Below are positions 4,984 through 63,035 of a stretch of 64,000 nucleotides of DNA, piece after piece. Within the stretch, counting starts at the first letter, position 1; every line of letters starts with the position of its first letter. This DNA is from Patiria pectinifera (Eukaryota; Echinodermata; Asteroidea; Valvatida; Asterinidae), in the NCBI GenBank assembly GCA_029964075.1, contig CM057147.1:10995513-11059512 (forward strand). The letters run 5' to 3'. The notes under the pieces were generated by a model. The model saw only the letters and a program-made list of their open reading frames with translations, had not been told where the DNA came from and did no database searches. The position numbers and the translations under genes are program-made.

Positions 4984-7900
4984 CTATAAAGACACAATCA
5001 TATACGAAACCTGTGAGATAAAGGAAACTCTCAAACTGTGGATTGCTGGATTAGAGCTCAGGTGATTTGTAGTGATTAAGTATGGAACTCTCAAGGGACA
5101 CAACAGAAACAATGACCATTACATATCTGGTGATTATTTGAGAATATGCAATTAAAACTTTTTTGAGAAGAAGTTAATTAGCCATTTCAAGTCCCTAGTT
5201 AATCCCAAATTTGAGTTTTAGTGGGTGGATGGCAGGCCCATGCATAGTTTGTTTGGTTTCCCTCTTTTCTGTTGCCTCTTTTACAGTGTATACAGGCTGG
5301 TTCTGAAAAAAACGTAAAGCAGCATTTTCAAAATTTAGGCGACATGTTGAAATTGTTTTAAGATATTTCAAAAGTAATAATAATAATAATAATTACACAT
5401 TTATACCGCGCAACATATCTGTCCAGAAACAGGACACCAAGCTGCACATCGGGGAAAAAAAAATTGGAGGAAAAAAGGTTCGAATCAATGAATGAAGTAT
5501 TAATCAAATCACGAGAAGGTTTTGGTGTATAAGAAAAAGTTTTCAAATTTGACTTAAAACACTGTAGGGATGAAGATTCGTGGATGTCTCTTGGGAGAGT
5601 GTTCCAGACTCGTGGTGCAGCTACTACGAGTGACCTATCTCCCCACGACCGTCTCGATCTGATCTCCGACAACCTGTGGATGTTGCTGGAGCAAAGACCT
5701 GAACGGCGGGGAACATTAGTTTAAAAAAGCTCCGAGATGTACAGTGGAGATTGACCGGTAATTGCCTTAAAGGTTGTCATGGCAAGTTTGTATTGAAGTC
5801 GCTGTTTGATGGGGAGCCAGTGTAGTTGCTTGAGGATTGGTGTGATATGTGATGAAGACCGGGAACCGGAGATAAGACGCGCAGCTGTATTCTGCACCTT
5901 TTGCAGTCTCTTGATCTGTCGTTTGACGTAACCCAAATAATGTGGAATTGTACAAGTCTAGACGTGCGGATACTAGTGCATGAATGAGCAGCTTTGTTGC
6001 TGGTGGACCGAAGACCTAACACAAGATGTGATAAGTCCCCTCCTCAAGACACTGTTACCACCAGCACACAACAACAACTTGAAGAAGCAAACATCAAACC
6101 ACAATGCTGTCCCAGACACACTGGAGGACTACAAAGAAAAGGATCAAATCAAGTCCTTAAAGAGTGTTCACCGATGAAAGGAGACAGGAAGTCCACTGAA
6201 TGGTGCTCAATTTCCTGAGGTTTTGTGAGGGGTACAACACCTGAACAATAGGGTGGGGTTTAACAGAAGATAAGACGTGCAGCTGTATTCTGCACCTTTT
6301 GCAGTCTCTTGATCTGTCGTTGAGGTAACCCAAATAATGTGGAATGGTACAAGTCTAGACGTGAGGATACTAGTGCATGAATGAGCAGCTTTGTTGCTGG
6401 TGGATTCAGGTACTCTCTGATTCTGCGAATGTTTCGCAGGTGATAGACCGAAGACCTAACACAAGATGAAATTTGAGGTTCCATAGTCATGTTGGCATCG
6501 AGTATCAGACCAAGATCACGAACTTTGTCGGCAGGGCGTATTTGGGAATCCCCGACTTTGATGTATGGGATGGCGACTTTCTTTCGGTACAAGATTTTGA
6601 TGGTATATAGTGAAAACGGCGTTAAAATAAAGCCTAAACTAAGAAATTGCAGCCATTTACAAAAACCAGTTTGTCCAAATGTGTGTATGAGATATCGTCA
6701 TTATTATTTGTGCACGCAGAGCTTTTGTTTTGACTAGGTCTCATAGACTTGCTTGTAGACCATTTTTCTGTAAATGGCTGCCACTTCTTAATTTAGACAT
6801 TATTCTCAACGCCGTTTTCACCATCTACATTTACCACCAAGATCTTGTAGTTTAGAAATACCTTAAAACAATTTCAACAAAAGTTTGAGTAATCTGCATC
6901 TGGAAAAGTGTTGTTTTTTTTAAGCACACTCTAGAATACATTTGACCATGATTATGGCAACCTCCATAAAAATGCATACAATACAGATAGACCTTTATGA
7001 GCTCTGATTTAAATTGGAATACATCTTTCGGACATGATCGAGATATGTATACGAACCTCCACCAGCAGGTTTGGTAGATTCTATAGTGATGTTGCCAGTG
7101 ATAGCTTGGCTGATCAGACCAGCATGATTGACAGCTCTGACTGATAGGCTATAGGTCGCATCATCGACCAGGCTAAGACCGGACCAATCAAGGTGGGTCT
7201 CTGATGTGGATCCACAAGGTGTCCAGGAGGTGAAGGCGTTGGGTCCACTCAGATGACACTGAGAGGAGGAAAAGTGTTCAATTAGGGATTAAACTACAAA
7301 TTCGGTGTCCAGGAGGTGAAGGCGTTGGGTCCACCCAGATGGCACTGAGAGGAGGAAAAGGATTCAATAAGGGATAACACTACAAACAAAGTGTCCAGGA
7401 GGTGTATGCGTTGGGTCCACTCAGATGGCACTGAGAGGGGGAAAAGGGTTCAATTAGGGATAACACTACAAACAAGGTGTCAAGGTGGTGAAGGCGTTGG
7501 GTCCACCCAGATGGCACTGAGAGGAGGAAAAGGGTTCTATTAGGGATAACACTACAAACAAAGTGTCCAGGAGGTGTATGCGTTGGGTCCACTCAGATGG
7601 CACTGAGAGGGGGAAAAGGGTTCAATTAGGGATAACACTACAAACAAGGTGTCAAGGTGTCAAGGTGGTGAAGGCGTTTGGTCCACCCAGATGGCACTGA
7701 GAGGAAGAAAAGGGTTCAATTAGGGATAACACTACAAACAAGGTGTCAAGGTGGTGAAGGCGTTGGGTCCACTCAGATGGCACTGAGAGGGGGAAAAGGG
7801 TTCAATTAGGGATAACACTACAAACAAGGTGTCAAGGTGGTGAAGGCGTTGGGTCCACTCAGATGGCACTGAGAGGGGGAAAGGGTTCAATTAGGGATTA

Positions 7901-10900
7901 TACTACAAATAAGGTGTCCAGGAGGTGAAGGCGTTGGGTCCACTCAGATGGCACTGAGAGGAGGAAAAGGGTTCAATTAGGGATTAAACTACAAATTAGG
8001 TGTCCAGGAGGTGAAGGCGTTGAGTCCACCCAGATGGCACTGAGAGGGGGAAAAGGGTTCAATTAGGGACAACACTACAAACAAGGTGTCAAGGTGGTGA
8101 AGGCGTTGGGTCCACTCAGATGGCACTGAGAGGAGGAAAAGGGTTCAATCGGGGATAACGCTACAAACTGCAGCTAATCAACTACTGGGGCCAGCATCAT
8201 CCTGCTTCTGTACTCATCCTGCTTCTGTACTCAAATGTCTACAGTATATCAGAGCACCAGAATCTCTGGCACAATCACAATTCAAGGAGGACAAACATAA
8301 ATGGTCAGAATTTGATTTCAGACAACATTTGGACCCTAATTACTATTGTATGTATTTCTACATACAGCTGGTCTGAAAAAAAGTCACACGTGTGCGAAAT
8401 GCACTGTCCAGAGTAATTTACTCAAATGAGAAGTATAGCTGCAAATATAGTGGAACAGGCGACCAGAATTAGAAGCTTTTACTGCATTGGTGTGACGCTA
8501 CAGAAGAGGCACACATGCATTTTGGTTTTCCTATTGGTCGAAGGAGCCCGGAGTGCGTATACAATACTTGAGCGCAACTCGCACAAGCCTGGTGCCACCA
8601 CAGAAAATGGTTGCCGCCAGATTTGTCTATAAAATGAGGCAGTTGTTCAAGTCGCATAAGCCTACTGTGTTTACTTTGACTTGATATGCTATGTATACTC
8701 AGGCAGCATCAGGTAAGATGGGTTTTATGAGCAGTGGTATACCTAATATTGTTATACCTCTGTCTTGAACATTGCATTTTCATTGGCCCAGAACGATCAC
8801 TCATTTTCGTGGGATACCACGTACATGTATGTACGTGCAGTGTGAAAAGCTTGTATCGTTGGTACCCACATTATTTGCACCATGTTTTCAGACGAGTGGG
8901 AGCAGCAAACTAGCAGATGATGTGAGTTGCCGTTCGCTTGTCATGATTGTTGTGTTTACTTCTGTTTGTTTTGGGGGATTTTTAAATCTAAATCCAAAAA
9001 AATTCAAACACAGAGGTATAACAAAACAATTGTTGACTGCTATGATGTGGGATATGACGTTTTGGACACCCTCTGGCTGAGATGTGCTGTGAACAAACTT
9101 AGTCTTGATATTTGACATATTGGACACTGCCCATCACAGTGCGACACTGACCTCATAGGACTGAATTCCAAATGGGTCCATGAATCCATCCCAGGATGCT
9201 TTGACAGAGTCTCTCTGTGACTGGTACCTATCGCGTGTGTCATACTGAGTCTCTGACACGGTCTTCAGATTGACGACTGCTGCTGATGAGCTAGGAGGCA
9301 TTGTAACTATGGTAACGCCATCTGATGATTTCCACGAGGACTTCTCAGCACCATTGTAGCATGTGATGGTTACGTACAGGCGCTGACCCTCAACCATGGC
9401 TTGGGACAGACTGGTGGTGATGCTGGAAGTGGCATCAGGAGATGGTGAGCTTGGTAGGATGTCATCAAGGCCAGGCTCTGATCCTGGGAAGAAAGGGAAG
9501 AAACACACTGATGGTCTAGTTTTCAGGGTTTCATGCACGGTTTCTCTGAGCGAGGTGGCCAGTATTTTACTCAGACTCAGATTCAAAACAAGTCATGTTA
9601 AGGTGGTCATACAAATCCAATAATAATCAGAAAGTATACAAATATAAAATGATTTGAGGGTGGACAGACGATATTAGCTCCCCGAGGTATTGGAAGTTGA
9701 CAGACTAGTTCCCAAATTGACGAACTAGTTCCCAAATTGACGAACTAGTTCCCAAATTGACGAACTAGTTCCCAAATTGACAAACTAGTTCCCAAATTGA
9801 CAAACTAGTTCCCAAATTGACGAACTAGTTCCCAAATTGACGAACTAGTTCCCGAGGCAAATCCGAGGGAACTAGTTTGTCAACTTCCAATACCGATGGG
9901 AGCTAATAGGGACTGTCCATCCGAAATAAGCCATGTAATATTTGTTTTACTATACCTCATACATATTGAGTTGCCGAATTTTCAAATTGCAGTATGCACC
10001 CTGTGGCCATAAAAACTTGTCCAGCTCACCAGAAGAATATTATTGCTCAACCTCTGAAAAGTTCAGTTCATTTGCAATAGAGTAACTACGGTTGTAAATA
10101 CAGTTGTTTGTGGACAACTTGTTTTAGTATAAAAGGAGGCATCCTTATTGCGCGCGCTTGGTAAACAGCAAAAATAACATCTGGCACGTGATGTTAAATG
10201 GACAAGTGAGAATTCGGCTCATGAATAAATATGAGCTATAGTAACAGGAGATATCAAACTTACCAACTGCCCATTCACAGTGGTCAATTCCACTCTCAGG
10301 ATCAGATGCTGACCAAGTAAATGTGAGAGATGAATCATCTGCACTGAAGTCAATATCTGTTGAGAAGAAACGAATTCTCGATGAAATGTTCTTGCTAAGC
10401 TGTGCTTGAATAGTAAATTTCGCTTTGTGACCAGTCGCAAGACGTCCTACTGCAAGGAACACAACATGCAAAGACTAATTCTCATGCGTTTGTCATGCCC
10501 ATGTTATGGAGAACAATTGCCTGTGTTACACACAACAATGCTAGTCTTATCTGAATGTTAACGATCCCATACTGCATGTGCATGCAATACAAAGGAAGGT
10601 CTAACTCTCCATCTATAACCATTCAAAGGGTATTTCTGCACAGGCTAAAGTCCATGACTATTTTCCTCATACTGTTTTGGACTAATAGTGGTCTAGAACG
10701 GCCACATGTCCAGTCTATAAATATAGCTGTTAACTTCATATTATTGCATTGCATATAAAGTACCTGATATACAATGTATTGTACATAAATTACTTTGTAC
10801 ATGAGCACCTGTAAAGATGCATGTAACGCATTGCAGTGACTTAAAGCTACAGTCCACCATTTGCAGCTATCAAAAAAGTGACTGGCGTAATTATTGTTGA

Positions 10901-13900
10901 AGAAACATACTTGGTTTAAAGATAGTAAGGGGACTGAACTCCCTGTGAAATTATTCATTCTGGCATGCTTCATTTTGAAAAAATAAACAGTGCGTCTTAA
11001 GACGCACCGTTGGAAATTTCCGTTAGTAGTTCCTTTTTTTTATACGGCGAAGCGCGCGCAAGCGTTGACACGACGTACACGCACACGCGCCCTCTATAAT
11101 TTGTCGGATCAGTGCGCCACATCACGTAGCTGCATTCAGCTCAGTAAGAACGTGTCTCGGACGCTGAATTCAGACCCAATTCAAAACACGATTCAGCAAC
11201 TTTTGATTTGAAATCGAGATCCTACAATGTTGTTTTTCTCAAAAAATACTGCTGAAGCTGAGCTGAAACTTCATAAAGTTAGTTGTTTATCACCCTTCTT
11301 TAGATTTTGAGAACGTTTGTTGCTCCAAACGAACAAAATGCACAAATTACAAATGATGGATTATACCTTTAATACATTTCTAGGATGCATACAGCACTCT
11401 CAGATTTGCCTCGGGTGCCATGTTTGCTTGCTTACTTGGGCATGACAAGTCAACTTTGTTAAATGTCAGTTTAGAAAAGAAAAGTTGGAATTTGACATAC
11501 CGTGGCCATCGCCACCATCTTTGACAAAATGAATCATGGGTGGCGTTAGGTCAACCAGAATGGGGTCAGAGGTTGCTATGGTGATGAGATCAGCTGCATT
11601 TCTTGCCATCACGGTGACGTAGACGTAGGAGCCATGTGCCATCATGACGTCAGTATTGATAGCGTCTGTCTGTGTACCCACTGATGTGAAGCTTTGTAAC
11701 TGGGTGCCGCCTTTGGTTGTACCTGATAAATGATTAAAAATAAGAGGGGATTCAGTAATGCCCAAAACAACAAACCATGTAGTAAGTAGTATACAAATGT
11801 AACATGGTATGAGGGTGGACAGTCGATATTCGCTCCCCAAGGTATTGGAAGTTGACAAACTAGTTCCCAAGGCGAAGCCGAGGGAATTAGTTTGTCAACT
11901 TTCAATACCGAGGGGAGCTAATATCAACTGTCCACCCACACTAAACCATGTTATTTTTGTTTTACTGTACCTAATACATAATCAGTTTTTATATATGCAC
12001 CTAAAATAAAAATTTCGGAGAAAATTGTACAGCAAACCAAAAGAACATTGTTGCTCAATTTCACTAGTTCAGTTCGTTTGCAATACAGTTGTAAATACAG
12101 TTGTTTGTGTACAACTTTCTTTTGTACAGGAGGCATCTTGATTGTCCATGAATTTGCTCCAGTACAACATCATTGAGCTTGGGAAAATTAACATTTACGT
12201 GAACCGTGCAACCATGCATCTCTCTTGGGCGATGCATACTACACCCGTGCGACAGTTCCTTGATTGCTTTGCATAGCGCATGCCTAATAGACGGGCAACC
12301 CGTGCAACGGGCAACCCGTGCAACAGTCAACTACGCATGCGTATTTACCCTGTGCGTGAATCCTCTCACGCGCGTTTGGTAAACAGCAAGAATAATGTGG
12401 TATAGTAATAAAGTCTGTCACGGGCCAATGTGCCCCATCACGCCAGCGTTTATCTCTGGTTTAAGTAGCATGGAACGACTGAGATATATTATATTCCCCT
12501 TGGATGGTATGCTAGTTCATCGCAGGTTACACTTCCCAGCTAATGCTGGTACCCATTTATACTTCTCTTGGTGAGAGGCAAGTGGGGGTGAAGTGGCTTG
12601 CCCTAGGACACAACATACAACCAGCAGCTGGATTTGAACCCCTGACCCTCTGATCATGAGTCACAAACCCTAACCACTAGGCCACACTCCCCACGTCCTT
12701 GGTCTTAAATAGAAGGCCCTTGATAGAGGATTCACGCGATTACTAAGAAACCCTTGTTTCCCACGCATCAGAAATGTCAAAACCACAGCCATTTCATGGC
12801 ACAATGACTTTCTCCTTAAAAGAAAAAACAGAAGCCCAAGACTCAACCTACCTATGGCCCAGGTGTAGTCGACTATGGGACTCTCAGGGTCAATGAAATG
12901 CCACTTGGCCTGGATGGATGACCAGCTGTGAATGAACTGGGTATGTACCTCTACAGACCCTTCACCGGTACTGGGTCCAGTGGTAATCTGCCTGACCTGT
13001 GTTTAACAAGAAATGGGATGGTCAGATGAAATGGTGAAATCACATGGACTGTATGAGCAGGTTATAAGGAAAATAGATTGAGATCCCACACCTATATTAG
13101 GACAAGTTAATGATACTAAACAGTAGTAGAATGTATGATCAGTGGGTACTTGGTTTATCTTGATCTATGCGGTAATTAAACTAATAGTTTATTTTATGAG
13201 TCAGCAACATTTATGTTCAGAAGTTGTTGATATTGATCTGTACATCCAAGGTGTGAGTGATAAATTTGGAAATTTAACTATGACTTTATGGAAACTGTTT
13301 TATCATGAAGTTTCAAAGAATCTTTTTTTTTTACATCGGCTTAAAACAATGTAGGGGATGTGTTTACAACCTACAAAATTAACTGTACTGGGCCTATAGG
13401 AGATTCTTTTCACCTGAACATTATCCAATAGGATTCCATTTGATCTTCCTACAGATGAGATTTTCAGTGTTGCTACGTCTCCACTGGCTGTGAAGTAAAA
13501 TCTGTGCTGATGCCATCGGATGGACCTGAGACTCTGGTCTGAGTGACTGTGTGCCGGCCGGTCATACAACCTGAAGATGCGATCCAATCCTGGAGCCTCG
13601 ATATGACCCTCCTGATTCAACAAAGGATTGTGGGAAGGCACCGGGTGACTCGCAAAGAACACAACTTGGTAGTGGCTTCCCTGTGTTGTGTTGAAGGTTT
13701 GGGAGATGGAGCCATGAAGAGACAAGAAGGAATGACCATCTTGAGCAATCTTCTTCCCTGAAGTGACCACAGCAAATTGGCTGTCAGATCCTACATCCCA
13801 CTGAAGTAGTACCTCACCTCGTTTACCATCGGTAACGTGCACACTGGTTGTGGATGACATTTCTTCAGTTGACAAATTGGTGGCAGAAGTGGGATAAGTA

Positions 13901-16900
13901 TCAGAGACATTGCCGTGATTTGGATCAGATGTACCCGAGGCTTCATTTAATGTCTCATTCTCAGCAATCACTGTTGTATATTCATATTCCGTATCTAAAG
14001 AGATCAACAAGATGGTTTCAAACATTTGCTTAATTGGATCAGAAGAACCTATTATGAAAATAAGATTTGAAATAGCAAAACTTCTTTTCTCTCCATTTTG
14101 TTCTAATAAAAACTGTTTAAACAAGTAATATGAAGATATGAATGAACCTAATGATGTTATACCCTCAATGGCTTTTTGATTCACCTGTTATGTCTGGTTC
14201 CTGCATCCTTTCAAATGATGGATTCTGGATCAAGTTATCCCCTAGATTTATCTGTTCTAGTGGCTCAGGGGGTGTAGTGTCCACTACAAACCCGTCTGAA
14301 GAGACAGATGCAGACTGCAAGCCAGCTGCGTCGATGGCTGAAATCTTGGAGTAATAACGGATGCCTGAAAAAAATAAGAATCAAATTCATAGTTAATGGT
14401 CACCCATAGACAAGTATTTGGTCCATATCTGTTGGCTTTGGGATTCAGATGGTTTGCACACACCATCTCCCCTAAATTTTTCACAACAGCATTAGTCGGA
14501 AATATCTTAGATAATACAGGCCTGTTTTGCACAATTACAGAATACCATTTTTCCTATTTCCTTGAAGATTTTTAAGGCATTTAGGAAACCCAGTCTGACC
14601 ATCCTCTAAAATCCTCCACTAAGCCGGGAAATTCTTTGTACTTGAACTTTCAAGGAGCATCATGCCAAATATTACAATAGCAGCTCAGGGATCCACAATA
14701 ACAAATTTATAATGAATCCTTCAAAACTGCATTGTAGATTATGAAGGATATCTTTTAGATTAAATCTGCTAAGGGGAAAAGCACCATCTTTCCACAGAAA
14801 GGCCATGAGTTTGCCCAATATTAGCAATTAAAATTTCCAAACAGACTTGCTGAAATTTAGAGTCAAAGAATTTATATCTTTTAGCCAGAAAAGGTCAAAA
14901 TAAAGTTTGAGACAGGCTTCTCGCAATGGTCATTCAGGACATCGAGTATCCAAGACGCTTGATAGACAAAACCTTACCATCTGTTAGAGGCACAGCTAGA
15001 GTCTTGGAGGCAGACAGGTGGATTCCAACATTGGTACAGGGCAGAATGCCATCATCTGCTGGGCTAGAGGTCTGTCCAACGCACCACTCATAATGGTCTA
15101 TGTAGGATTCCAGATCCACAAAGCCATGCCAGGAGGCTGAGATCAATGTGCTGGAGTTCTGGTATTCCACATCGTGGAGATCTGCAACAAAGAAGTCAAG
15201 TTCAGAAAACCTCAGTTCAGGTTTGTTCTGCTTTTAGCTATGGAAATATTACTCTTGGATATCAGCATCAATCCTATAGTCAAGGTTTACATTAGTACTG
15301 TGTTATATTTTGCTTGATTCTAATGTTATATCTGGGAAAATGCCTGCACCGCAGGGCAGAGTCACTATGGAAAAATTACTCTTTGGATATCAGCATCAGA
15401 TTCTATAGACCTTTATCATGCTGCCACCATTTCAGTCATGTTCCCTGTAACCAATTATAGTCCTGACAGATAATGTTTTTGTGCAAAAAGGAACCAGACT
15501 AATTTTCCCTTCCAACCTTGCTTTGGTTACGTTCATTTGAATGGCGAAAAATGAAAATGGCCGCAACAATTCAGTGGTCTATATTCAAATTTATACATTA
15601 AAACCTTCCTACACAAACATGCATTCTGTGCCAAGACGGTCTTTCAATCAAAATTTAGGCAATCGACTGTTTTTAACAGCTAAGAGCTCCCAGCCTACAT
15701 AAAGCAGGATTGACTGGCTGTGACTGTCTATGTAACTTGGTACACTATGCTTAAGTGGATGGACTTTTTGACTGTCTGTGCCTGTTCAAACAGGAGGAGG
15801 GTTAACATTGTCAGTGTTACATATTTTGCTTGAGTGTGGAAATGTATAGTAGAGATGATGTACACAGATATTTTGAAATTTGTGGACCATCAGGGTAGAG
15901 GTCTTTTAATCTTGCCACAACTGCAATCCTATGAGTGTTGCTTTTGATGAAGACTCATGATGTTTATGTCCAACAGCAAGACACTTTACAACAATTACAT
16001 ACTGGTACATGATTGTTTCCCGAGTGAAGAGACTTTTGTGTCAGTGTGATTACAGAAGTGACGTTTATGTCCAACAGCAAGACACTTTACAACAATTACA
16101 TACTGGTACATGATTGTTTCCCGAGTGAAGAGACTTTTGTGTCAGTGTGATTACAGAAGTGATTATGGCAGTGATGCATTAGGCACTGACAAGGAATTGT
16201 GCAAAGAAATACAAAGCACAAGAGCTGTTCAGAGATGCTTTCGAGTCACCATTATCCATGAAGCATTATCTGTACATTGTGAAGGAGAAACAAGGTGAAT
16301 ATTCACCTGTTCCATCAAACACAAGGCCTGCATCTGGCCTCCTTGTGTCCACCACAAAGCCATCACTGCTTTTGAGCGTGTGCAGACCAGCTTTGTTGAA
16401 CGCTCGTACGTTGCTGTAGTATCGCAGTCCACTCTTTAGATTCAGATTGGTGAACTGTGTGGAGGACACACTGGCCGGGAAGGTGTGGTCAGCAAACTGA
16501 CGAATATCTTCACCTGAGAAACAAAATGAATTACAGGTAGAGGACATCATTTATAATTTGTGCATTCTCTTCGTTTGAAGCAACTAAAGTACTCAAAATC
16601 AAAAGAAGGGTGCTTAACAACTAACCTGATGAACTTTTAGCTCAGTGATTGCTATACATTCCGAGAAAACAATATGCTAGGATCTTGATTTCAAATCAAA
16701 ATTTGCAGAGTCATGTTTTGAATTGCGCTCGAATTCGGAACATGTTCTCATTCAGCCGATTGCAGCTACGCAATGTCGCGCACTGAACCGACAAATTACA
16801 GCAACCGCACTCCCTTGTGGGTTGTGTCAATGCTTGTGCATACTCATTCACGGCTTTGCCAAATTAAAAACGAACTACTAACGGAAATCTATTCAAAAAT

Positions 16901-37900: not shown

Positions 37901-40900
37901 ACATTGGCTCTTGACAGACTTTACTATAAATGTTCAAGATATAAATGTGGTAGTCATGTGGTGTCTAGTGCCCCCACCCTCCCTTCTGAAGTTCCATGGC
38001 TGAGCAATTTTAGGATTTTGCCAGACACTCATCTCCCCCACCCCCTCCTCTTCGCAGACTTTGATTTATGCCAACATGTTTCAATATGACACGATTTCAC
38101 TCTTACCTTTGATCTGTAATGACCTCCACCATGCAACCCTAGTCCAGCTCCAACATGTTGGAGTGCCATGCCAAGATCTTGATCATCAACCACTGGGATC
38201 CACTCCATCGTAGTGTTCTCATCATCTGTGGGAAATGAATATAATTTGTTTTAAAAAGGTAACATAAATTTCAAAATCAGCAATTGTAGGTTAAGACACG
38301 AATTTAAAACAGTAGCTTATAGTGGTTCTTTTGGCTAAATAATAAATTTTAAAAAAATATTGAACAAAAGGTATTTAACAATTTGCCTTGAACTTCATAA
38401 CATTATCAATAATTTGAATATCCAAATCAATTATATGGGATCTACATTCTGAAACTCTCCAAAATTCCCTTAAAACATGGCAAAGTACATTTCCAATACT
38501 ATCAAATTAAAGCAGTAAGGATAACACGTTTGTGGTAAAACTCAGAGGCATGTGATTTCAAGTTTACCAAGGTATATTTCGATTTCTTGTTCAACTGCCC
38601 AGAAGACGCCAGTCACAAAGGGTTGCAGCACCTCAGGGATGGTCCAACGAGCTGAGATGTCTGAGGTAGATGACTGGTAAGTGATGTCATCCTCACACGG
38701 TTGCTGAGCGGCAGATGAGTGATGAGATGATCCTGGTGGCACAGACACTGCAAGAAGGAGGCAAGAACTGTGAGTAAAGAGGGATGATGAGGGATGGTCT
38801 AATGAGCTGAGATGAGTGAGGTAGAAGACCAGTAGGTGATGTCATCGTCATCCTGGCAGAAAGGATCAGCAACAGATGAGTGATGGGACAATCCTGATGG
38901 CACAGACACTGCAAGGAGGCAAGAAACTGTGAGTAAAGAGGAATGTTGAGGGTTTGTCTAATGAGCTGAGATGAGTGAGGTAAGACTGGCAGGTGATGTC
39001 ATCCTGACAGGGTTGATGAGCAGCAGATGAGTGATGAGATAATCATGGTGGCACAGACACTGCAAGAAGGAGGCAAGAAACTGTGAGTAAAGAGAGATGT
39101 TGGATTATATGAGCTGAGATGAGTGAGGTAAGCCTGGTAAGTGATGTCATCCTGACAGGATTGATGAGCAGCAGATGAGTGAATAGATAATCATGGTGGC
39201 ACAGACACTGCAAGGAGGCAAGAAACTGTAAAGAGGAATGTTGAGGGATTGTCTAACAAGCTGAGATGAGTGAGGTAGAGGACTGGTAGATGACGTCATC
39301 CTGACAGGATTGATGAACAGCAGATGAGTGATGAGAAAATCCTGGTGGCACAGACACTGCAAGAAGGAGGCAAGAAAGTGTGAATAAAGAGAGATGTTGA
39401 GGGTTGGCTTAATGAGCTGATGTGTCGCAGGTAAAAGACTGGTAAGTGATGTCATCCTGACAGGGTTGATGAGCAGCAGATGAGTGATGAGATAATCCTG
39501 GTGGCACAGACACTGCAAGAAGGAGGCAAGAAACTGTGAGTAAAGAGGGATGTTGGATGGTCTAACAAGCTGAGATGAGTGGGGTAAGACTGGTAGGTGA
39601 TGTCATCCTGACAGGATTGAAGAGCAGCAGATGAGTGATGAGATAGTCCTGGTGGCACAGACACTGCAAGGAAGCTGTGAGTAAAGAGGAAAGTTGAGGG
39701 ATTGTCTAACAAGCTGAGATGAGTGGCGTAGAAGACTGGTAGGTGATATCATCCTGACAGGGAGGATCAGCCACAGATGAGTGATGGTATGATCCTGACA
39801 GCACAGACACTATACAAGAAGGAGGCAAGAAACTGTGAGTAAAGAGGAATGGTGAGGGTTAGTCTTATGAGCTGAGATAAGTGACGTAGAAGACTGGTAG
39901 GTGATGTCATTCCGACAGGGTAGATGAACAGCAATAGATGAGTGATTGGATAATCCTGATGGCAAAGACACAGGCAAGAAACTGAGAGTAAATAGGGATG
40001 TTGAGGGATGGTATAACAAACTGAGATGCCTATGGCAGATGACTGGTAGGTGATGTCATCCTGACAGAGTTGATCAGCAACAGATGAATGATGGATAATC
40101 CTGATGGCAGAGACACTGCAAGATAGGGGCAAAAAACTGTGAATTAAGAGATAGTTGAGAGGGATGTTGAGGGATGGTATAACAAGCTGAGATGCCTATG
40201 GTAGATGACTGGTAGGTGATGTCATCCTGACTGGGTTGAACAGCAACAGATAAGTTATAGATAATTCTGATGCGAAGACTCTGCAAGAAGGCGGCAAGAA
40301 ACTGTGGATTAAGATATAATTGAGAGGGATGTTGAGGGATGGTGTAAGAACCCAAGATGCCTATGGTAAATGACTAGTACGTGATGTCATCCTGACAGGT
40401 TTAAACACCAATCGCCTCCAGGATAATCCTGGAGGCAAAGACACCATTCTGATGGCAAAGACATTGCAAGAAGGAGGCAAGACACTTTGAATGACTAAAG
40501 ACAGTTCTGGAGAGGGTTTTATCACACTCAGAAGGTTAACCAACATCAGGGATAGAGAAATACATTTAGCAATGAGAAAGGATCAGAGAAAGATGTCCTA
40601 TCAAGCTCAAATCCGAGTAAATGTTATCCAATGCAAGATACTTGAATCCTTCCAACAAAAATGTTGCACCACAGAAATAAAAACCACGGGTCTTACTTTC
40701 ATCTTGATCGCAGCCCAGTCCATCTTTGATCACTGCTCCCTCCAGTACCCGACCCTCCTGAATGACTTTGACACCGTCTGAGGTAACATTGACACTACCA
40801 GCTTCAGAGGTAGCACGGATGGTCACATAATAGGTCTAGCAGTAATAAAAATAAATACCTCAATGTATACAGAAAACAGAAACAAACAAAAAAAGGTATA

Positions 40901-49900: not shown

Positions 49901-52900
49901 CCATTTAACACCTGGGTTGACAGGAGTAATTGAGGTAAAGCGCCTTACTCAAGGGCACAACATGCATGGCCACGGTGGGGCTCAAACCCACAACCTCACG
50001 ATCGTGAATCCTGAGCTCAACCGCTAGACCACACGTGCCCATGATGTTTAGATTGCATTATTCGATGAGATCACTCACTTTCAATTTTCTTTAACATTTT
50101 AAAGACCTTTCAATTTAATCATTCCGAGTGTCATTTTTAAATCATTGTAGGGGCAATTAAATGGTTCAAATACAAGTACTAGTGATTTCATTCAATGTTA
50201 AAATGTATTACTGCATTTTAATGTTTAACCGGACAAGTATTACATTCACTGTGTGCACTTCCGAACAACAGATGTCCATATTAACCAGGTTTCAGATACG
50301 TTGTGTGGACGTGCCCACGTCCACACAGTGTTTCCCCCTCTCTGGAAAACAGGTTTAGAGGCATTTGGGGTTAGGTTTACCGTCGCAAAATGAAGAGAAA
50401 CATTCAAGGGAATCAAAGAAAAAAATTTGGTTTGAGAAAGTTTTCACAATTAGAGTAACATGAGTTTTTTGAAAAGTTTTTCTTAACTACACGAAAACAA
50501 AGGAATATCCACTGAGCAATAAAAAAAATTTAGAAAATAATAATGAATTACAACAATCTTTTGGAATTTCTGGATTTTTTTTCTTTAAATATTTATACCT
50601 TGATTGTCTGAGTAGTAACTAGTCTTGCTTGGTTGGTCACCGTCAGGGTGATGTAGTAATCATAGTCATGGGTGCCAATGTGCATTGTTGGATGGAAACC
50701 ATAGTCTACTGCATAACAATCACCGAGTGGGACACACATACAGCTGACAGGATCACAATCCTCAGTATCCTGTGTAAAAAAAGCAAACAATAACAGCAAA
50801 CTTTCCTGCGCCAAGTCATCATTTTACAGTGTTGTAGTACTCGTACTCGGTACTCGTATTCGAGTACTACTCGAGTACTTTTTTAGTATAGGTTTTCTCG
50901 GTCAATTTCGGCAAATGAGCAGCCAATTTAACCACTACGCTTTTCTATTTCGCGCGAAATCAAATGCTACTGAAAAGGGTCATTCGATTTCGTTTTATGA
51001 CCAGTCAAATGTACTGTTGCGTCGTTCGATTTAACAAAATAATCATGCAATTTAACAATTCAACAAAGCAGCATTCAAATTCGCAGGAGCTTTTTGAGGC
51101 GTGTGTTTAGTCATTCAAATTTATTTTTGGGCAGTCATTTCTGGAATTGTGCAATCTAAAAAACGCTTTGTTAAATTTTTGTTTCCTTAAGAATGTTGAA
51201 GGCATAAATACGGTTCACTTTTTGGCACTTGAGTCACTTTGCCGATGTACTTCGAAGACGAGCTTTCGCTACAGTTTCGCCACAGCAAGATGGATGATGA
51301 CATGCGAAACCATCTGCAAGGCATCCTGGACGCTAATCCTGTCTTGACACTTCAACAAATGAAGGCTAGTTTGAGTGAGCATAAAGTGCCAGAGAAGCCC
51401 CAGGTTTCTACTGCCACCATAGCCAGGGCCTTGGATGGGATGATGATTACACTGAAACTAGTGGAGGACGTCCCTGATGCAAGAAATTCCCCTGAAGTTC
51501 TTGATCAACGCGTCCAGTATGGTGAGTGGTTCCTGCAGCATGGTGTTCTGGCGCATCTAGTCTTCATTGACGAGACAGGTTATAACGTCTGGACTCGACG
51601 CTCCCAGGGTAGAGCTCCACGAGGGATCGCTGCAAGACGAGTCGTCGACAGACAACGAGGGAGAAATTGCAATGTCACCTTCGCTGTTTCTAGTGAAGTA
51701 GGCTTGGTGCACCACCGAATCGCATTCGAAACTGTGACGCGAGAGAGATTCGAGGAGTTTCTTGCGGACACAATTCAAGAGTGTGATGCAGTTTTCCCAG
51801 ACGACGAACCCATTTATATACGACATATACGACAATGCGAGGCCTCACATGCGAGCCCAACTCCCTGAAGGTGCCAACCCAATGATCCAGCTGAAGCGCC
51901 TCCCTCCCTACTCCCCATTCCTGAACAGCACGGAGATGGCACACTCTGCATTCAAGGTTGCAGTTAAACGCATCCTTGGGTTACCTGAGTGGCAACAACG
52001 TGTTGGAGACAGACAGGCTGCCCAGCAAGCAGGAATGACGATATGCTAAATTGAACACAGTGCTAAAGGAATTTGAATGCCTCAAAACGAAATTGAATGG
52101 CCGAATTCTGAATTTGAAACGCAGTAACAACTGGAGAGGCAAAATAGCTTCAATTCGAACGCACGAAAATTAAATTGGCTGCTCATTTGCCGAAATTGAC
52201 CGAGAAAACCTATAGTACTCGTACTTGTACTCGTTCTCGAATGTCAAAGTACTCGTACTCGAAATTTCAAAATTGTACTTGACCGTCAAAGAACTCATAC
52301 TCAAAAAGCAGTACTCGGGGGAAAAATGGTACAGCTTGACTTACCATGGCCTTATTTTATCAGTTTGAAATGGTTGATTGGCTTGTAGAGAAAATGAAGT
52401 TCATGATTTTTCTCTGTGCATGTGCACAGAGAAAAATCATGTCCTGACAAACACATTTAACAGCCAGCCGCGAGTGAGTCTGTATATCGGTCTGACTGGG
52501 CCTGGGCCAATTATCGGAAATACAAGTACTTGTACTCGTACTCGGAAGTACGAGTACTCGTACTTGTACTCGTACTCGGAAGTACAAGTACTTGACTCGG
52601 AGACCTGTCCTTGTACTCGGAGGTACAAATACTCGTACTCGGAGGTACAAGTACTCGTACTCGTTCTTGTACTCGGCAACCTAAGTACTCGGCAGTACTC
52701 GGTACTCGGAAAAAAGTACTCGACTACAACACTGTCATTTTACAATTGCAAATGGAATACGAGCCTGACACAAAATACAAAACTACAATGTTAACCAACT
52801 GTAAAGTTTTACATTCAAGACTTAGTTGTTTTACCGTGTTGATTTTCCTGGCTGCCAAATTCTGGCTGCCATGTGCCATCTCTGCGCCAGTGTGGTTATC

Positions 52901-55900
52901 AAAGAGAAGCCACTCGATGGTTCGTATACCGCTGTGAATGTCATATGTCCTGAATTCAACACTGTGGAAAAATGAAAAGAAAATAGCCCTCAGAAAAAAA
53001 ATGACGTTCTGGTTTATTTTTAATACGGTGTTTTCTATGCAACCTATATATAGGTAGTCATCTCAGGAATATTAGAAAACGCATTGTTTAATTTGCATCG
53101 GCTCAATCAAGGAAAATTAGAAAGCTTGTAAATGTAAGTATAGCTGTGCATATATTTCAAAACATTTTTCAGGCGTAATTTTTTTTCCTATTTTGTTAGG
53201 TATAGCTTTATCAATCACAGATCATCTTAGGATCACCTTATGAAAAATAACATAGAATTCCTACCTCATCTTATCCAGATCCTCTGAATTATGAACGGCT
53301 AGATTCACCTCCCCGTCCCGTACCAGCCAGAAGTCTTCAATCACAGGCGGGGATGAATCAGCATGAACCAACACACTGTCCCTCACAAAGTGACCAGCCA
53401 AATCCCTGGCCTCCACCCAAAACCGAATGGAATCACCATCCACAAGGGTCAGGTCATAGGTCGCCTGTGTGTTTGTGCCTTCACTACTCCAGTGGTCTGA
53501 GTCGTCGTCACTCACGTTGACAGTGGTTCTGCCACCGCTGTGGTCGATGTCGTGAACGACGCGGAATTCTGTCACACCGAGGGAGTTAGGGACGGCTGCA
53601 CGGCCACGTTTCCCAAAGTTCTGGTCATAATCTAGGAAAATGTAAGTCAGGTGTAGCATTTTTTACTGCATAAGCTAGAAGCCCTCGAATACTATAAGCA
53701 GGAACACCATCCCCACCCAACCTCCTCAAGTGCAACAGGAGGTAACAAAACAAAAAAAAACCAGACAAGGGCAAGATTTGAACCAGCAACTTCTAGAAAA
53801 CCTCAGCATCACATTACATGATGAGCTACTGTGTCATGTATGTTTCTCAATTTGGGCGATTCACAATGCAGTGCGCCACCAAGAGTTTGCCATGGAGAGT
53901 CCTTTTTTTCAAATTTATGGTCAACAAAATACAGCTCATTGGAATAAATGCCAGTAGACAACTTGAAGTAAATTGTTATAGATTGGGGTATAGCAATCTG
54001 CCGTCTAACAAACAAACATCACATTGATATAAAAAGAAAAAAAGAAAATAACAAACAGATGCTCGAATCATACGCTTACGAAAATACTGACCGAAAAAAC
54101 GAACAACTTCAAATGTCCCGCACTGCGAATTTTTCGGGCATCTCCCACAATGCACCGGAAAAAATAAACTCTCCATGAAAAACTCTTGGTGGCACATTGC
54201 ATCAAGAACTGTGAATCGATCGCCCGAATTGGCAAACAACTTTGTTCAATTAAACAAACAAAATTACTAAATTACTTTGTCATCAGTTTCCCTCACCATT
54301 TAAATGAAAATATTTCAAAAATGTCAAGTACAATTTCTACGTTTACCAACTACCGTACCATCGAAGTGAAATGTGATAAACTCACTGGAATCGATGGTAC
54401 CAGCAACATAGGAGCCAACTGGTTTCAACAATCCTTGGTTGTGATGAGGTGCATTCATAAATCGGTTCGTCCAATCAAGCTGCACGGATGTCATCCCTCC
54501 GCTGGAGTCCAGATTGGTTATCCACACGTAGTTGGTTTCTGCAGTCGCTGAGACAAGGCGCAGAGAGAAATCATCGCGAAGGGTGACATCGTGTGGATCG
54601 TCATCAAAGAACACAAAGCGTCTGCTGAGTCTGACATTGCCCGCATTGTCAACAACACTCAGGACGATGGAGTACACACCTGTACAGATGTAATTAATAA
54701 TAATAATAGTGGGTATTTATAAAGCGCACGTATCCACCAGGACTGGTGCTCAAGGCGCTACATCATTACTACCCCTGCTCATTGGGCCAATGAAACATTC
54801 CAAATACCATCTCAGCTCCCTGGGGAGTATACAGCTCAATGCAGCCTGTTAGGCGCAAGGAAGCTAATTCAATCACAATAATCATCTCTGCCCTCACAGG
54901 TACCCATTTACTCCTGGGTGGAGAGAAGCAATGAGTGACAAAGTGCCTTGCCCAAGGGCACACTCACCATGACCCCGCCAAGACTCGAACCCACAGCCTG
55001 CAGCTTATAAGACAAGCTGTATCTTTTTCTGTAGAGGAAAAGATACAGCTTGTCTTATATTCTTCTTTACAAGGTGTATTGAAAGTGTTGGAAATTGAAC
55101 AGAACAGTTGGAAATTAATACATTTGGACTTGTTTCGACTTTTGGATAGAAAAGTTTTTATTTTTTGGCCTAAAAGGTATTTATGAATAAATGGTTCGGC
55201 TCGGGTACTTATCAGCATCCAAACTCCAAGCTATCTTAAACATAGTGTTTAAAACTGGCCAAGCACACAATTATTCCCTTAACACGTTTTTTGAAAAAGG
55301 CTTATGCAGGCGTCAATTTGAAGCCTGAACCCACCCTCCTCACGTCATCACCTTTCTTCACCTGAGCCAATTATGTATAAGGTCAGGATTTCACTACCAC
55401 TTCACTCTATCAGCAAATGTGTTAGTCCAGGCTTCACCCTTTGAATTATTTCCATAGGTGAAGCTTCACTTTTTCAGTTTTTGCCAGGTCTGACGCTTCA
55501 CCACTGTTTCACCATATTGGCCATCTGCATAGTTTAAGCTTCACCTCTATTAAAATCAAGCTTCATTAATGTTTACTTATAACTAGACCATGACTGCAAT
55601 GGTTAAATTTGTAATTCCACACTGCTAAAAAAGTACCAAGTCAACCAGGTTTCAATCCAAAGATACAGTGACATTTATTTTGTAAATCCAATGTTTCTAC
55701 AAACACATTTTTGTTAAAAAGCATGAAGTTTATTCGAAAGTTGTTTTAACTTTGACACGTTCGCGATCGCCTTTCCTTGCTAATAAGGACAGGGACTAGT
55801 CTAGTTCGCCTCGTTGCTATAAACTTTCGCCAACGCACAGCTTGTTCGATCCACTCAAAGTGAGATCGGTAGCAAACGTGCGCAAACTTGGCAACGTTTG

Positions 55901-58900
55901 CGCAAGTGGAACCACCACAGGATACAGTTTGCAAGGTGGTGCGGCGCGCGATGTTAGATTGTGTGTATTTGTGTGGGCAAACTTCAGTTCAAAAATTGCG
56001 CGCACACAAATTCCAAGTTGGCTTGCGCGAATTTCAAAACAGGCCATCTTATTAGATTGCATCACAATTACAGTTGTTTGAAACGCCACGACTTCGACAT
56101 ACTTTCGGCGCGACCGATGTCGTGGATTCGATGTCACATCACCAAACACAAATAAGGCTCGTCAACGCTTCACCCTTTCATCAACTTTATAGGTAACGCT
56201 TCACCCAATTATTAAAAAGGAACGTTACGGCTTCACTATAACAACAAATTATTGACCTCAGGCTTCGGCGTCGAAACGGCGTCGATATTTTGCGACCTCT
56301 GAGGAGGGTAGGTCCACGCTTCAAATTGACGCCTGCATTAATAAAAAATAGCCCTTCCAAATGCAATACATGGTCTAGGTTGTGAAAAAAAGTACAACGT
56401 ACATTTTGAAACATAAAAATTAACAAGATTTGCTCAAATGAACTTGAAATTATTATCTGTCAAGGATTTTGAAAATATGATATCAAGGTAGCGAAATTTA
56501 AAGGGAATATACAACATTTGCAAACATCGAAAAATAAAACTACCAAGTTTTTACAAAATACCTTACTACATGTAGGATGTTGGTAAATGACAGTCTAAAG
56601 CATCCTGTAAAATTATGGCACCTGGTGTGAAGTAATTTTCAAGAAAATTGTATTTTTGTATACATTTGGCCGACCACTGTTGGAAAAACCTAACTATTTT
56701 TCAACTACTGCTCCAACTTAACACTTTTTCAGTCCAAATTTTGTTTGCTATTGGTTACATGTTCATGAACGGGTGCAGGCCAGCTAGACTGGTTCCCTTA
56801 CCTTACAATTTTCCGGCTTTTTATTTTTCTTGGTTTTTCCAGCATTTTCGAACACAAAACTTCAAACATGTCAGTGTAACAATATTTGATCTATTATACT
56901 AACCCCTCAAATAGTTCATTTCTGAAAATAACAGCAAAAGCCAATGATGTACATTCCCTTTAACGCTTGATTTGCAAAATGATTTAACGTACCAACATGG
57001 GGCAAAGTGATGTTCTGACTAGAGTTGGTCACTCCACTATAAATGGCTGGACTGTCAAAGATTTCCGTCATCTCATTGCCATGGCTACCAGATAGCTGAC
57101 GTACTTGCAGCTCGTATTCCTTAATGCCAGCAACACTGTCTGCCCAGCCTTGCCAGGTGACAATTATCTCTGCCTGTGAAGAATATGAAACCAAACATTT
57201 ATTCATTAATGCCTAAGACAGTTTACCCATTCCCATTGGTCAAGAGCCTGTCACGTGGCCGGTCTTAAAGATAGTTGGGTGGGAAGAAGGGGGTATTGGC
57301 ACCCTCGGAAATCAACTTCTAATCAACGTCTCTAGATCAGAAAAAAATTCTTGGTTTTTCCAGCATCTTCAAGCCCAAAACTTGAAACAAGTCAGTTTAA
57401 CAATATCTGCTATAACATTCTTATCTCCAAAATCCACTTACTACTGAAAATTGCAGCAAGAGCAAATGTTGTACATTCCCTTTCAGTGTCTTGCCCAAGG
57501 GCATAAACACCATGTTCCTAGCTGGCAGGGAACATGGTGCTTGTGTTCTTGGGAAAGACACTTTACTATAATTGCCACTCTCCACCCAGGAATACAAATG
57601 TGGTACCTTGGAAGGTGGAGACCAGAATGCATTGATCTCGAGCTGCTGCAAAAAGTGGTCTCATGGCCTGATGAAAAGTGGTAATAATTGTGAAGCACTT
57701 TGAGACCTTTGGTGTAAGGCACTATACAGGGTGTTTAAAAAAAAAGGAACCCAACTTCAAAGAACGAGTATGGACAGACGATATGTTTACTGGCTATAAA
57801 ACTGGTATCATCTGAAAGCGTAATCTCTATGCTTTTCAATGATACCGTGTTTAGGTTTTCTGAGTCATGCATCACTGAGCATCATTGTCTTGAAAACTGG
57901 ATGCAAAAATGCAGTTGGTTCACTTTCATAAAAAAAAAACCCACTGGGCACGGTGTGCCTATTGTTACGGAAATGTCTGTGAAATGGCTTGAATGTTAAT
58001 CCTCGGGAAAATGGCACATTGTTTTGAACGTGGCTTGGTCAAAACGAGAAATTCATGACAAACAATAAAATCCAGTTTTGAAACCAACCCGACTTGTTGT
58101 TTTTTTTTGGTTTCTTTTATGCACTCGTGTCTTCTTCTTGAATACTTATTCTCATTCCCACCATGCCTATTGTGTTTGACATGAAAGTGAACCAACTGCA
58201 ATTTTGCATCAAAATCTCATGACAGTGCCGCTCAGTGATGCATGACCCTGGAAATGTAAACAAGGTATCATTGAAAAGCACAGAGATTACGCTTTCAGAT
58301 GATACCAGTTTTATAGCCAGTAAACATTTAGTCTGTCCATACTGGTTCTTCAAAGTTGGGTTTCCTTTTTATTGAAACACCCTGTATAAGCACCACATTA
58401 GTATTACATTATTATTATGCCATAAACCCATCATGCCATATATCCATTCAGGATTGAAATCATGTTTGGTCCACACTAACCTGTGATGTAACATCATTCC
58501 CTGCATACAGCATAGTGGTTCTACATCCACTGCCAACATCCACACAGTGGTAGGGGTCGATGAAGTCAAAGGTGAAAGTTGAAGAGTCGGAGGTTGTCCT
58601 GCCACTGTAGTATCGTGTGATGATGCTGTTTGAATTGTCCCTATCATAGAGCTTCATGTACCCGCCACTTGTGGAATATACATTATACCTCAGGCTGTAA
58701 AACCATACAAATGAAGAAATATAAACAAACACACATACTACAGACATGAAAATATAACAATCTGAAGAAAACAGCTGATTGAAACTGATTCAAGCACTGC
58801 AATGTTGTCATTTGAACCACGGAGCAAGGAACTGAAGGAGTCAGAACTCCCCTACTTCAAAGAAAATTTGCTCTATTCCTTCCGTCGGAAACCTTAGGAA

Positions 58901-61900
58901 ATTTCCCAAAATGTCATATTTCATGAATGATTTATTGCCAATAAAAAATTCAAAAAGACATAACTTATTGGGAAAAAAATTGATTTATCTTCAAATAACA
59001 GGAAGAGATAGCGCATTCAAGGGCCAGCAACTGCACATCGATAACTTGATTTCATTACTCACATCTAACAACTGCGTAGTTGTTAAAATCTACAAAAATT
59101 TTAAAAGAGGAACGACGTGACATGACTATAGGGAGGTTGTTGGTTACCAACTGAAAAGGTGGTGACGATCATCGTGTTCAAAGGCCGCTTGCAGTCACGC
59201 AATGAATGGTCCAGGATTATGGTCACAGTGCTGTAGCTATGGACATTCCCGAGGGATTGGAATGTTAATGCTCAAAACTGTAAATCGCCGAAGAGTTCTA
59301 ACTCCTATTCCTTGCTCCATGTTTGAACAGAGTAATTCTTGTATATTCTGAAACAATCCAAACTGTCCTAATCATGTATAATATCTTTCTGAACATAATT
59401 ATTTCTACAGGCTGGAGAATTTGATAATAATTAATGAAACTGATAAACCTGTATGAATTAAAGCATTACAAAAATTTGTTTCGAATTTTGCAACTTACGA
59501 AATTTGCCGAGTCCTTACACTCAAATTATCAAAACAAAATTGGATTTTTCAAGATACATTGTATTCTCTTACCCCAACGATCTGTCCTAAACCTCTTTAC
59601 TTCAAAGGTTATTTTCATGCAACTTTTCATCTAAAACATGTGAATGTTGCTCTAAACATAACAGCACAGGCAAAAAGTTGTTATCATTAAGTAAAATGTT
59701 TGGCAATTTGATCACACTACGTGTTTCTAATGGGCTTACACATCTCCTGTAGCTGGTGTCCAGGAGTTGTAGTTCAAGTTGAATGTAAACTGACAGGATA
59801 CCACGTCTGTTGCCGGATTGTTTTGATTGAAAGAATTCCCAGTTGTCGACGTTGTACAATCCTGCGAGCCCACTGAATATATCACACTGTAACCCCCTAG
59901 TGCATGAAAAAAATCACAAAGGGCAAAAAACCTAGCTAATATTGATTTACATCACCCTGAAGCAAATTCATCTTATGAATAGGTTAACTGTGGTGCCCCC
60001 TGCTACATACATCGGATTCAAACCAGCCACCGATCCTGCATGTTTGGTGGTCGAGTGGTGAGACGTCTGCGCTAGAAAGCAGGAGGTTGTGGGTTCGAGT
60101 CCCATCCAAGTGTTTTTTCCTACTTTAAATAATAACAAAGGTTTGCAGAAATACCATGTGCGAATAATTTCTCAACTAAGATAATTGGTTCAATAACATA
60201 ACTAGAGGGAATACGAGAAGTTTTCTCCTGGAGACGGTCAGAGCATACTGACCGGAACGTCGAGTTTATACCTCTGGTTCTTTTCAGAACCATTCTCTTA
60301 GTTGAGAAATTATTCGCACATGGTGTTTCCGCAAACCTTTCATTATTTACTATCTCCACCATGCAAAGCCTCAAATCTTACTTTTCCAACTTTCACTCAG
60401 GAGGTAACACACTTGAATATGCAGTGTTTATACGTCGGTGAAGGGCAAAAACCTAATATTGATTCAAATCACAATATTATTTTCTGGTATTGATTAAAGA
60501 TAAAATATTAACCTTATTAAAATGTGAAGGTTGTACAAAATATGCTTTCCGTGTGGCCTAAACAATAGCTTGTAAATGTATTCATATACATGTAGGAATG
60601 TTTGGTTCAATAACATAACTAAAGAAAGACTGAAGGGAATACGAAGAGTACATGCCTGCCCTGCCCCCCCCCCCCCCCCCCCCATTAACCTGTGTCAACC
60701 CCTCTGCCGCCCAGAGCTCAGATAGGTCGTAAACAATCCTGGCCCACACAAAGGCCATGTGACCTGGCTATATCTTGTGCATGAGGGGGGGATTGACCTA
60801 GAAACAGTGTGGTGATAAAATTCTCCATGTGGTTTCACGGTGTGATTTTTTTGGTCACTCGACTTTAAGAGAAGAAAACCTTTTTTGTATATTTGAAGCT
60901 GATTATGATCAGTACCCATTCAGTTGTGTCTTCGATCCACCCCTCCAACAAATACCCTACTGCAAAACTGGACCCTAGATATGCCACTTTGTAGGTACAT
61001 GTACTTAATGGGTGTCTCTGGGTGTGTCGCTTTCGATCTGAATCTGATTTTTAAGCTCTGGCAACAGAGCTTCTACCAGTCACTCGGGTTTCGGTTGGTC
61101 AGTCCCCCCAAAAAATTGACCAAACACGAACCCCCAAACTCACCCACAAACCTGTAAGTACCAAACTGTAACTGTCCAAAACAGCAAACAAAAGACATTA
61201 AATACTTGCCGAAACTTTTCTGTAACAATTTGTGATACTATTGTTTATGAACTTTTCTGATTAGAGGCAAGATAATTGTGGTAACTAGTGCAGAGCCAGT
61301 TGAAAATGTGCCTGTTCGGGAGGGGCAAGTTGAAAATGTGCCTGTTCGGGAGGGGCAAATTGCTTGACCGCTGCGTTTTTGAGAACTTTTCGTGCAAACA
61401 ACGCACACAATTATGAGGAAGAAAAGTGTATCATTGTTTATTTACCCTCTATTCTATGCACGGACGCGGCATATTGACGCCATAGATATAGAACTATAAC
61501 TATGATTGACGCGGCATATTATTCTACACGCGGCTTATCATTCTATGCGAGGACGCGCGCTTTAGCTCAAACATGACGTAAACAATCGAAAAGGACTGTG
61601 CGTGCTCTAAGTTAATAATCTGCCACGTTGAGGCTCAAAAAATGCTGCTTTTTTGCAGCTTTTTCGAGAACCGCTCATCCAAACCACTTCAAACTTGACA
61701 CTGCACATTCAGTGGTGCCGAGCAATACACCTGCCGCTTTTCAACTTCATATGGTGCCCTGTTCTGGAGATAATAGGCGGACAGACAGACAGACACAGAT
61801 TCCTGGAATTATAGTAAGGATGTTATAGTCACATGGTATTTTTGTGCGCTTCGAACTTAGAAAGTTTTAAAAGGGGCTTCTACCTGTGACTATACATCAC

Positions 61901-62393: not shown

Positions 62394-63035
62394 CTGCAAG
62401 GAAAGATTAAGGCTGTGGCTATATGGCTATATGTAGCAATAATGCAGGGGACTAGGGGAAGTGGATTCAGCTGCTTGCCATAGGCACCTGTATGATTGAT
62501 AAGTCTGGTGCTTGACTACTGCCCACTGCAAGGAAAGATTAAGGCTGTGGCTATGGCTACATGTAGCAATAATGCAGGGGTCTAGGGGAAGTGGATTCAG
62601 CTGCTTGCCATAGGCACCTGTATGATTGATAGGACCGGTGCTTGACTGCTGCCCCCTGCAAGACAAGAGTTAAGCTGTGGCTATGGCTACATGTAGCAAT
62701 AATGCAGGGGTCTAGGGGAAGTGGATTCAGCTGCTTGCCATAGGCACCTGTATGATTGATAGGTCTGGTGCTTGACTGCTGCCCACTGCAAGACAAGAGT
62801 TAGGCTGTGGCTATGGCTACATGTAGCAATAATGCAGGGGTCTAGGGGAAGTGGATTCAGCTGCTTGCCATAGGCACCTGTATGATTGATAGGTCTGGTG
62901 CTTGACTGCTGCCCATTGCAAGACAAGAGTTAGGCTGTGGCTATGGCTGTATGTAGCAATAATGCAGGGGTCTTGGGAAGTGGATTCAGCTGCTTGCCAT
63001 AGGCACCTGTACGATTGCTGGCGGTAGCCACTGGA
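62371..63035 (-). repeat. Acceptor-spanning minisatellite at exon E1, 130-bp unit, ~5 copies
   Basis: In gene sense units read CTTTCCTTGCAG or CTCTTGTCTTGCAG, then TGGGCAGCAGTCAAGCACCA, then an intron-like remainder (GTGCCTATGGCAAGCAGC, TGCATTATTGCTACAT). One distal copy has lost the AG (TTGCAATGGGC). The copy at 62371-62393 is the start of E1. Confidence 0.9.

Follow-up and report, generated by a model that had tools for sequence, protein, structure and literature searches.

Results

The host gene and its setting

The window, by which we mean the whole stretch of DNA that was analysed (64,000 nucleotides), carries on its minus strand a gene in which three minisatellites lie across 3' splice sites, at exons E48, E17 and E1. 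Compared with a full-length collinear paralog, the window has 49 blocks that are conserved in translation; two of these are pieces of the arrays. Many exons of the two genes are about 90% identical, and their introns have diverged. The main features are as follows.

7057..7258, minus strand: functional exon E48, starting in phase 0, first exonic base 7258, reading CHLSGPNAFTSWTPCGSTSETHLDWSG..., donor GTTCGT
7214..8168, minus strand: E48 array, 86 bp x 11.0 (Tandem Repeats Finder, TRF)
38568..38747, minus strand: functional exon E17, phase 1 at start and end, first exonic base 38747, reading MSVPPGSSHHSSAAQQPCEDDITYQSSTSDISARW...
38635..40411, minus strand: E17 array, TRF periods 165/307/453
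62136..62393, minus strand: functional, internal exon E1, phase 1, first exonic base 62393
62365..63017, minus strand: E1 array, 130 bp x 5.0 (TRF)
C19:10404864-10455478 (L009-L015), opposite strand, inverted: full-length collinear paralog, ~0.6 Mb away

The gene product is composed of many repeated domains. Among the nine minus-strand frames tested against Pfam, one contained DUF642 above the cut-off and another Big_3_2 below it. Because conserved EGF-like exons, identified by eye, lie upstream of E1 beyond the window end, and because the nearest of them ends in phase 1, the intron phase that E1 requires, E1 is, judged from these phases, an internal exon and not exon 1 of the gene.

Two further tandem arrays are present in the gene, at 9704-9853 (20 bp x 7.5) and 15958-16162 (101 bp x 2), both between conserved exon blocks. 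Within the span of the gene, an open frame on the plus strand (51233-51868) with DDE_3 above and HTH_32 below the cut-off is probably the remnant of a Tc1/mariner-like transposase.

An amphioxus origin of the genome was rejected. Its tektin scores 592 bits against 8snb_8Q, a chain from sea-urchin sperm, and 344 bits against the next chain, from a mammal; GFP, which is abundant in Branchiostoma, gave no family hit, in a search that was equally negative for all of its control genomes. The assembly contained no COX1 match that would reveal the mitochondrial code. Of two published primers, a Parvulastra TP primer (PMC3314618) matched at two places with 2 mismatches, no better than its reversed control. 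A Patiria miniata Gsx primer (PMC3710244) matched exactly at one place, where the 120 bases around the expected position lacked its partner and the first 400 bases showed, by eye, no Gsx-like frame.

Anatomy of the arrays

The arrays were located with TRF, and their copies were then divided at the acceptor. In all three, the unit consists of a polypyrimidine tract, AG and the first bases of the exon, as an earlier preliminary description had proposed; its copy numbers agree with ours at E48 (11) and E1 (5), and its figure of ~12 for E17 becomes 11 recognisable copies. The E48 copies measure 86 bp, except one of 85 and one of 94, and combine about 41 bp of intron end (polypyrimidine tract plus CAG) with about 45 bp of exon start. 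At E17, the spacings between acceptors are mostly 145-161 bp and the unit joins about 43 bp of intron end to about 110 bp of exon start; the uppermost copy, whose acceptor position at 40463 falls beyond the TRF range, is very decayed and lies 348 bases from the next. The E1 unit has about 91 bp of intron end, largely an old MITE-like element, and about 39 bp of exon start. The exon thus contributes about 45 of 86 bp (E48), 110 of 150 (E17) and 39 of 130 (E1). The AG is kept in 11/11 copies at E48, 9/11 at E17 and 4/5 at E1; counting the upstream copies only, it is kept in 21/24, including all ten at E48.

The three arrays are unrelated in sequence, as had been described, with short matches at most: the E48 unit gave no blastn match to either of the others at E<=1, and the units of E17 and E1 shared six matches, the first of them 12 bases long at E 0.15. 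Identity among copies ranges from 64 to 100%. The last E1 copy is 84-87% identical to the others, and the remaining four are 92-97% identical to each other. This contrast of the edge copy is weak at E48 (last copy 84-93% to the others, other pairs 84-100%) and likewise at E17. Two E48 units, u7 and u9, are identical and the unit u8 between them differs, which suggests block exchange within the array.

The intronic part of the E1 unit, together with 62936-63064, is an old dispersed MITE-like element with ends, as seen by eye, like AAGGCTGTGTCCCA..GTGGCTA and AGCCATAGTCAAGTGATT; similar stretches occur on C3, C19 and C20 (L003, L005, L007, L008). That an entire array is a transposon was rejected, since the units hold the gene's own exon and only the intronic part of the E1 unit is a dispersed element.

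Only the last copy leads into an open exon

Read from its acceptor position, every upstream copy (E48 10, E17 10, E1 4; 24/24) reaches an in-frame stop before the true exon, and the last copy of each array alone remains open through the exon. In the reading of E1, an A was supplied as the carried-over base, a choice that touches no codon but the first. In each case the last copy runs into an exon whose frame the collinear paralog preserves, and the arrays do extend upstream from the functional exon start, as had been noted.

At E48, the position of the used acceptor agrees with a relative, P0006, that is apparently spliced, because it encodes 478 residues on a contig of only 1856 bases. Its protein reads ...GIQAYECQLTGPNA..., and the junction YE|CQLTGPNA falls exactly at the last E48 acceptor, the corresponding stretch of the window running from GIQSYE through a donor (GAG|GTCAGT, in its longer context TATGAG|GTCAGT) and the array to CHLSGPNA. 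The phases of E16 (GATGAAA|GTAAGA), E17 and E18 agree; a close spliced relative of E17 was not found, and in P0008, a distant one with 32% identity, the first E17 residues are missing. P0009 has E1, E2 and E3 joined, and our search found no relative spanning the E1 acceptor itself.

The sense strand of all arrays is free of GTRAG. This says little, because the gene's own donors on either side of E48 (GTCAGT before, GTTCGT after) fail the same test, and the arrays amount to ~370 bp of independent sequence. We infer that the upstream acceptors are ignored in vivo. As coding alternatives the upstream copies were rejected, and no alternative coding product is evident, since a stop follows every one of the 24.

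Copy numbers in the paralogs

E48 has one copy in the collinear paralog versus 11 in the window. At E1, four paralogous genes have 1 (L004), 1 (L006), 2 (the collinear paralog) and 5 copies (the window). The E17 array of the collinear paralog comprises 4.4 copies, an inserted stretch and then the last copy with its exon, and it also spans the acceptor; the insert resembles, by eye, a reverse-transcriptase fragment. Because the window gene and the collinear paralog have the same unit junctions at E1 and E17, the founding duplications at these two exons predate the duplication of the gene. The copy numbers are as expected for growth by tandem duplication; compared without a tree, they leave gain and loss unpolarised, so that the E48 difference may reflect a gain in this gene or a loss in the paralog, and the E1 array may have grown from two to five copies or shrunk.

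Boundary arrays in other genes

A scan of other genes of the genome (613.5 Mb in 1020 contigs), which the preliminary description had suggested, was carried out as an exon census. Searches with seven protein families yielded 581 matches at the level of exons (tektin 20, myosin 75, AAA_6 125, AAA_8 69, kinesin 130, DHC_N2 103, AAA_9 59); the AAA families we take to be dynein. For myosin, AAA_6, kinesin and DHC_N2 only part of the candidates was scored, and neighbouring matches with overlapping model ranges (e.g. C3:7463269/7464142 and C18:15423332/15424064) were left in the count. By hand count, 51 of the 581 matches come from partial tandem copies, 10 of them at one locus on C22 and 21 and 20 at two loci on C19. 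Arrays are found at 3 of the remaining 530 exons, one at an acceptor and two at donors; the census detects an array only where the exon contributes a long part of it.

In the acceptor array, which lies in a dynein gene on C22 (L070, L072), a 118-bp unit (about 23 bp of tract and AG plus about 95 bp of exon) is present in 10 partial copies, after which comes the true exon. The string CCATTGTC (8 bp) occurs both in the intron flank of the first copy and at the exon breakpoint, with 12 of 16 positions matching around it by eye. The donor arrays lie in dynein genes at two loci ~284 kb apart:

C19:33537705-33540827: dynein donor array locus
C19:33821585-33824994: dynein donor array locus

In the donor array whose letters were read (L071, L073), units of 142 bp, each with a donor, repeat the end of a P-loop-coding exon, and it is the first copy that is intact, with 21 partial copies downstream. 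At the second locus, known by coordinates only, 20 partial copies were seen; the two loci are likely a paralogous pair. Both types of boundary are thus affected in one genome, and in genes unrelated to that of the window.

Two nearly identical myosin loci on C18 (L061 and L062) contain a 132-bp array at about 1690-2200. They were not counted as boundary-spanning, since by eye the array starts at donor +3 and does not include the exon.

Chance and enrichment

All three arrays of the gene with a period of at least 50 and at least 2.5 copies lie on acceptors. For segments of 86, 130 and 155 bp placed at random between 7 and 63 kb, the probability of spanning an acceptor is 0.075, 0.111 and 0.133, acceptors being taken as the 5' edges of the 49 conserved blocks including the two array pieces; the product of 0.0011 is post hoc, for a window that was picked for the feature. 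In 174 kb, made up of the window, the tiles of the paralog and two 10-kb tiles from the flanks, five arrays (period at least 50, at least 2.5 copies, score at least 200; mean period about 245) lie on no known splice site. By hand arithmetic these give a rate of about 0.7% per boundary, and hence about 0.3 arrays expected versus 3 seen at the roughly 47 acceptors of the gene, and about 7 expected, before detection loss, versus 3 seen at the 1060 census boundaries. The gene is rich in boundary arrays, but it was selected because it has them, and the census is without excess. For the concentration of three arrays in one gene, chance and the choice of the window are the only explanations at hand.

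Discussion

We consider it likely, on the basis of the anatomy, the reading frames and the occurrence of arrays at both kinds of boundary, that the arrays are "mirages", that is, boundary-spanning minisatellites that represent tolerated mutation and not a control device. An array would be founded when a tandem duplication takes in a segment that by chance spans an intron-exon boundary, and would later grow by slippage or unequal exchange, with partial homogenisation of its copies. The exon-proximal copy would keep the full exon and remain the used splice site. The other copies, with splice-site letters and a partial exon but with stops and no consensus partner site, would act as extra intron and be tolerated. 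We infer both the near-neutrality of the arrays and their founding by exchange between short imperfect repeats. The 8-bp match at the C22 array fits an origin by slippage, or by unequal exchange involving short repeats, and it is the only clear microhomology; by eye, about 2 bp are shared at E48 and E1 and 2-4 bp at C19, and E17 is unreadable in this respect.

The preliminary description regarded the three arrays as independent occurrences of one design, and this part stands. Its further step, from a shared design to selection or to a mechanism of acceptors in particular, is not supported. When a segment over an acceptor is duplicated, only the downstream copy stays joined to the remainder of the exon, and extension upstream is therefore forced. 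The direction of an array needs no cause of its own, because the intact exon must come last over an acceptor and first over a donor, and both arrangements are seen. Two points nevertheless count against tolerance as the whole account. If tolerance were all, boundaries should not be preferred to the interior of introns, but the three arrays of the gene all lie on acceptors; and the AG kept in most upstream copies admits constraint as another reading, although homogenisation accounts for it.

Mutation specific to 3' splice sites, seeded by slippage in the polypyrimidine tract or by repair coupled to transcription or to the lariat, would account for the position of all three arrays and for the paralog's E17 array, which spans an acceptor too. 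The breakpoints, however, are not confined to the tract but fall within the exon and, on the intron side, about 23-91 bp ahead of it; the acceptor type makes up one of the three arrays in the exon census, and donor-side arrays exist. The dynein donor arrays on C19 are the mirror image of those studied here, and slippage at acceptor tracts, offered earlier as a cause, fails as a general one. We regard acceptor-specific mutation as improbable.

A role in splicing control had also been suggested. Stacked acceptors kept by selection could serve as decoys, control the rate of splicing or provide alternative starts, and three arrays in one gene, the intact AG in 21 of 24 upstream copies (E48 10/10) and the founding of the E1 and E17 arrays before the paralogs split would all fit such a role. 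But a stop is reached from every upstream copy, arrays are absent from E48 in the collinear paralog and from E1 in two other paralogs, unit lengths, exon shares and phases vary between the arrays, and dynein genes have the same design at donors. We think that a splicing role maintained by selection is quite improbable.

Assemblies often get the copy number of near-identical arrays wrong, and collapsed or stuttered repeats have to be considered here as well. For one amphioxus mirage, the sequence in the draft genome is reported to look aberrantly assembled (PMC3087553). In the present case the copies differ from each other, the E1 and E17 junctions recur in a separate paralog and matching arrays occur at two dynein loci, all of which makes an artefact very improbable.

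Tandemly duplicated, mutually exclusive alternative exons are a hardly credible reading: exon starts are indeed repeated together with acceptors, but the copies hold the exon start only, are closed by stops, include no complete open exon each and, as a weak point, carry no GTRAG donor. Dscam is the well-known case of tandem mutually exclusive exons. The arrays resemble exons of that type in that exon-like units are repeated in an intron, and differ from them in that each unit holds one exon end only and is closed by stops.

Mirages as a reading of these arrays have consequences beyond the gene. We speculate, although we consider it rather unlikely as a general statement, that boundary minisatellites form a widespread and recurrent mutational class in deuterostomes and no peculiarity of cephalochordates, enriched at splice sites through a process linked to intron ends or to exon sequence, which lengthens introns repeatedly and supplies cryptic acceptors. 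If this is true, such arrays would be a source of new exons or introns, with cryptic acceptors ready-made. The paralogs described here provide the un-expanded state and intermediate copy numbers at acceptors, in a genome where donors are affected as well, and the arrays allow exon definition and intron growth to be tested on cases supplied by nature. They are also a warning to gene finders, with 21 decoy AG acceptors in front of three real ones.

Several known systems can be compared. Repeats within coding sequence are reported for bindin (PMC3605852, in the part available). In intron gain of the type described by Rogers (PMC4974935), a tandem duplication carries splice signals inside a gene, which is the case here too. 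Unlike that model, as far as the accessible part of the paper sets it out, no new intron or exon is evident in our arrays, since the last copy keeps the frame conserved in the paralog, and the copies lengthen an existing intron.

The closest likeness is with amphioxus. Mirages were described there as minisatellite-like duplications of intron-exon boundaries, earlier in Adh3 and then in the globins BflGb6 and BflGb9 (PMC3087553), to which PGBD5 and TnC were added (PMC3902484). The available part of the globin report has both boundary types affected, RT-PCR results that suggest regular splicing, and a mechanism that is called unclear (PMC3087553). Among the papers listed in searches of the open-licence literature, titles and abstract starts showed no boundary-spanning minisatellite outside amphioxus. 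The genes named above, which the accessible parts of the two papers treat one by one, are now joined by cases apparently from a second deuterostome phylum, at acceptors and at donors and with paralogs for comparison, which makes mirages countable. As in amphioxus, going by those parts of the papers, the unit is an intron end with an exon start, or the reverse at donors; the authentic exon stands at one end of the array; the splice-site letters are found in many but not all copies; and the unit sizes are similar (about 150-160 bp in the amphioxus globins, 60 and 108 bp in PGBD5). Two further marks of the amphioxus arrays are edge copies that escape homogenisation, a contrast that is clear here at E1 and weak at E48 and E17, and copy numbers that are unstable among alleles or in the soma, for which the single assembly used here offers the spread among paralogs. 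In contrast to the amphioxus cases as presented there, the host is an echinoderm, two acceptors have 11 copies each and one donor has 22, three arrays are found in one gene, and the E1 unit derives in part from a dispersed element; in addition, RT-PCR was reported for amphioxus Adh3 and the globins, and the echinoderm arrays are known from sequence alone. Taken together, the arrays of this gene apparently belong to the mirages already described in amphioxus, and it is the phylum that appears to be new.
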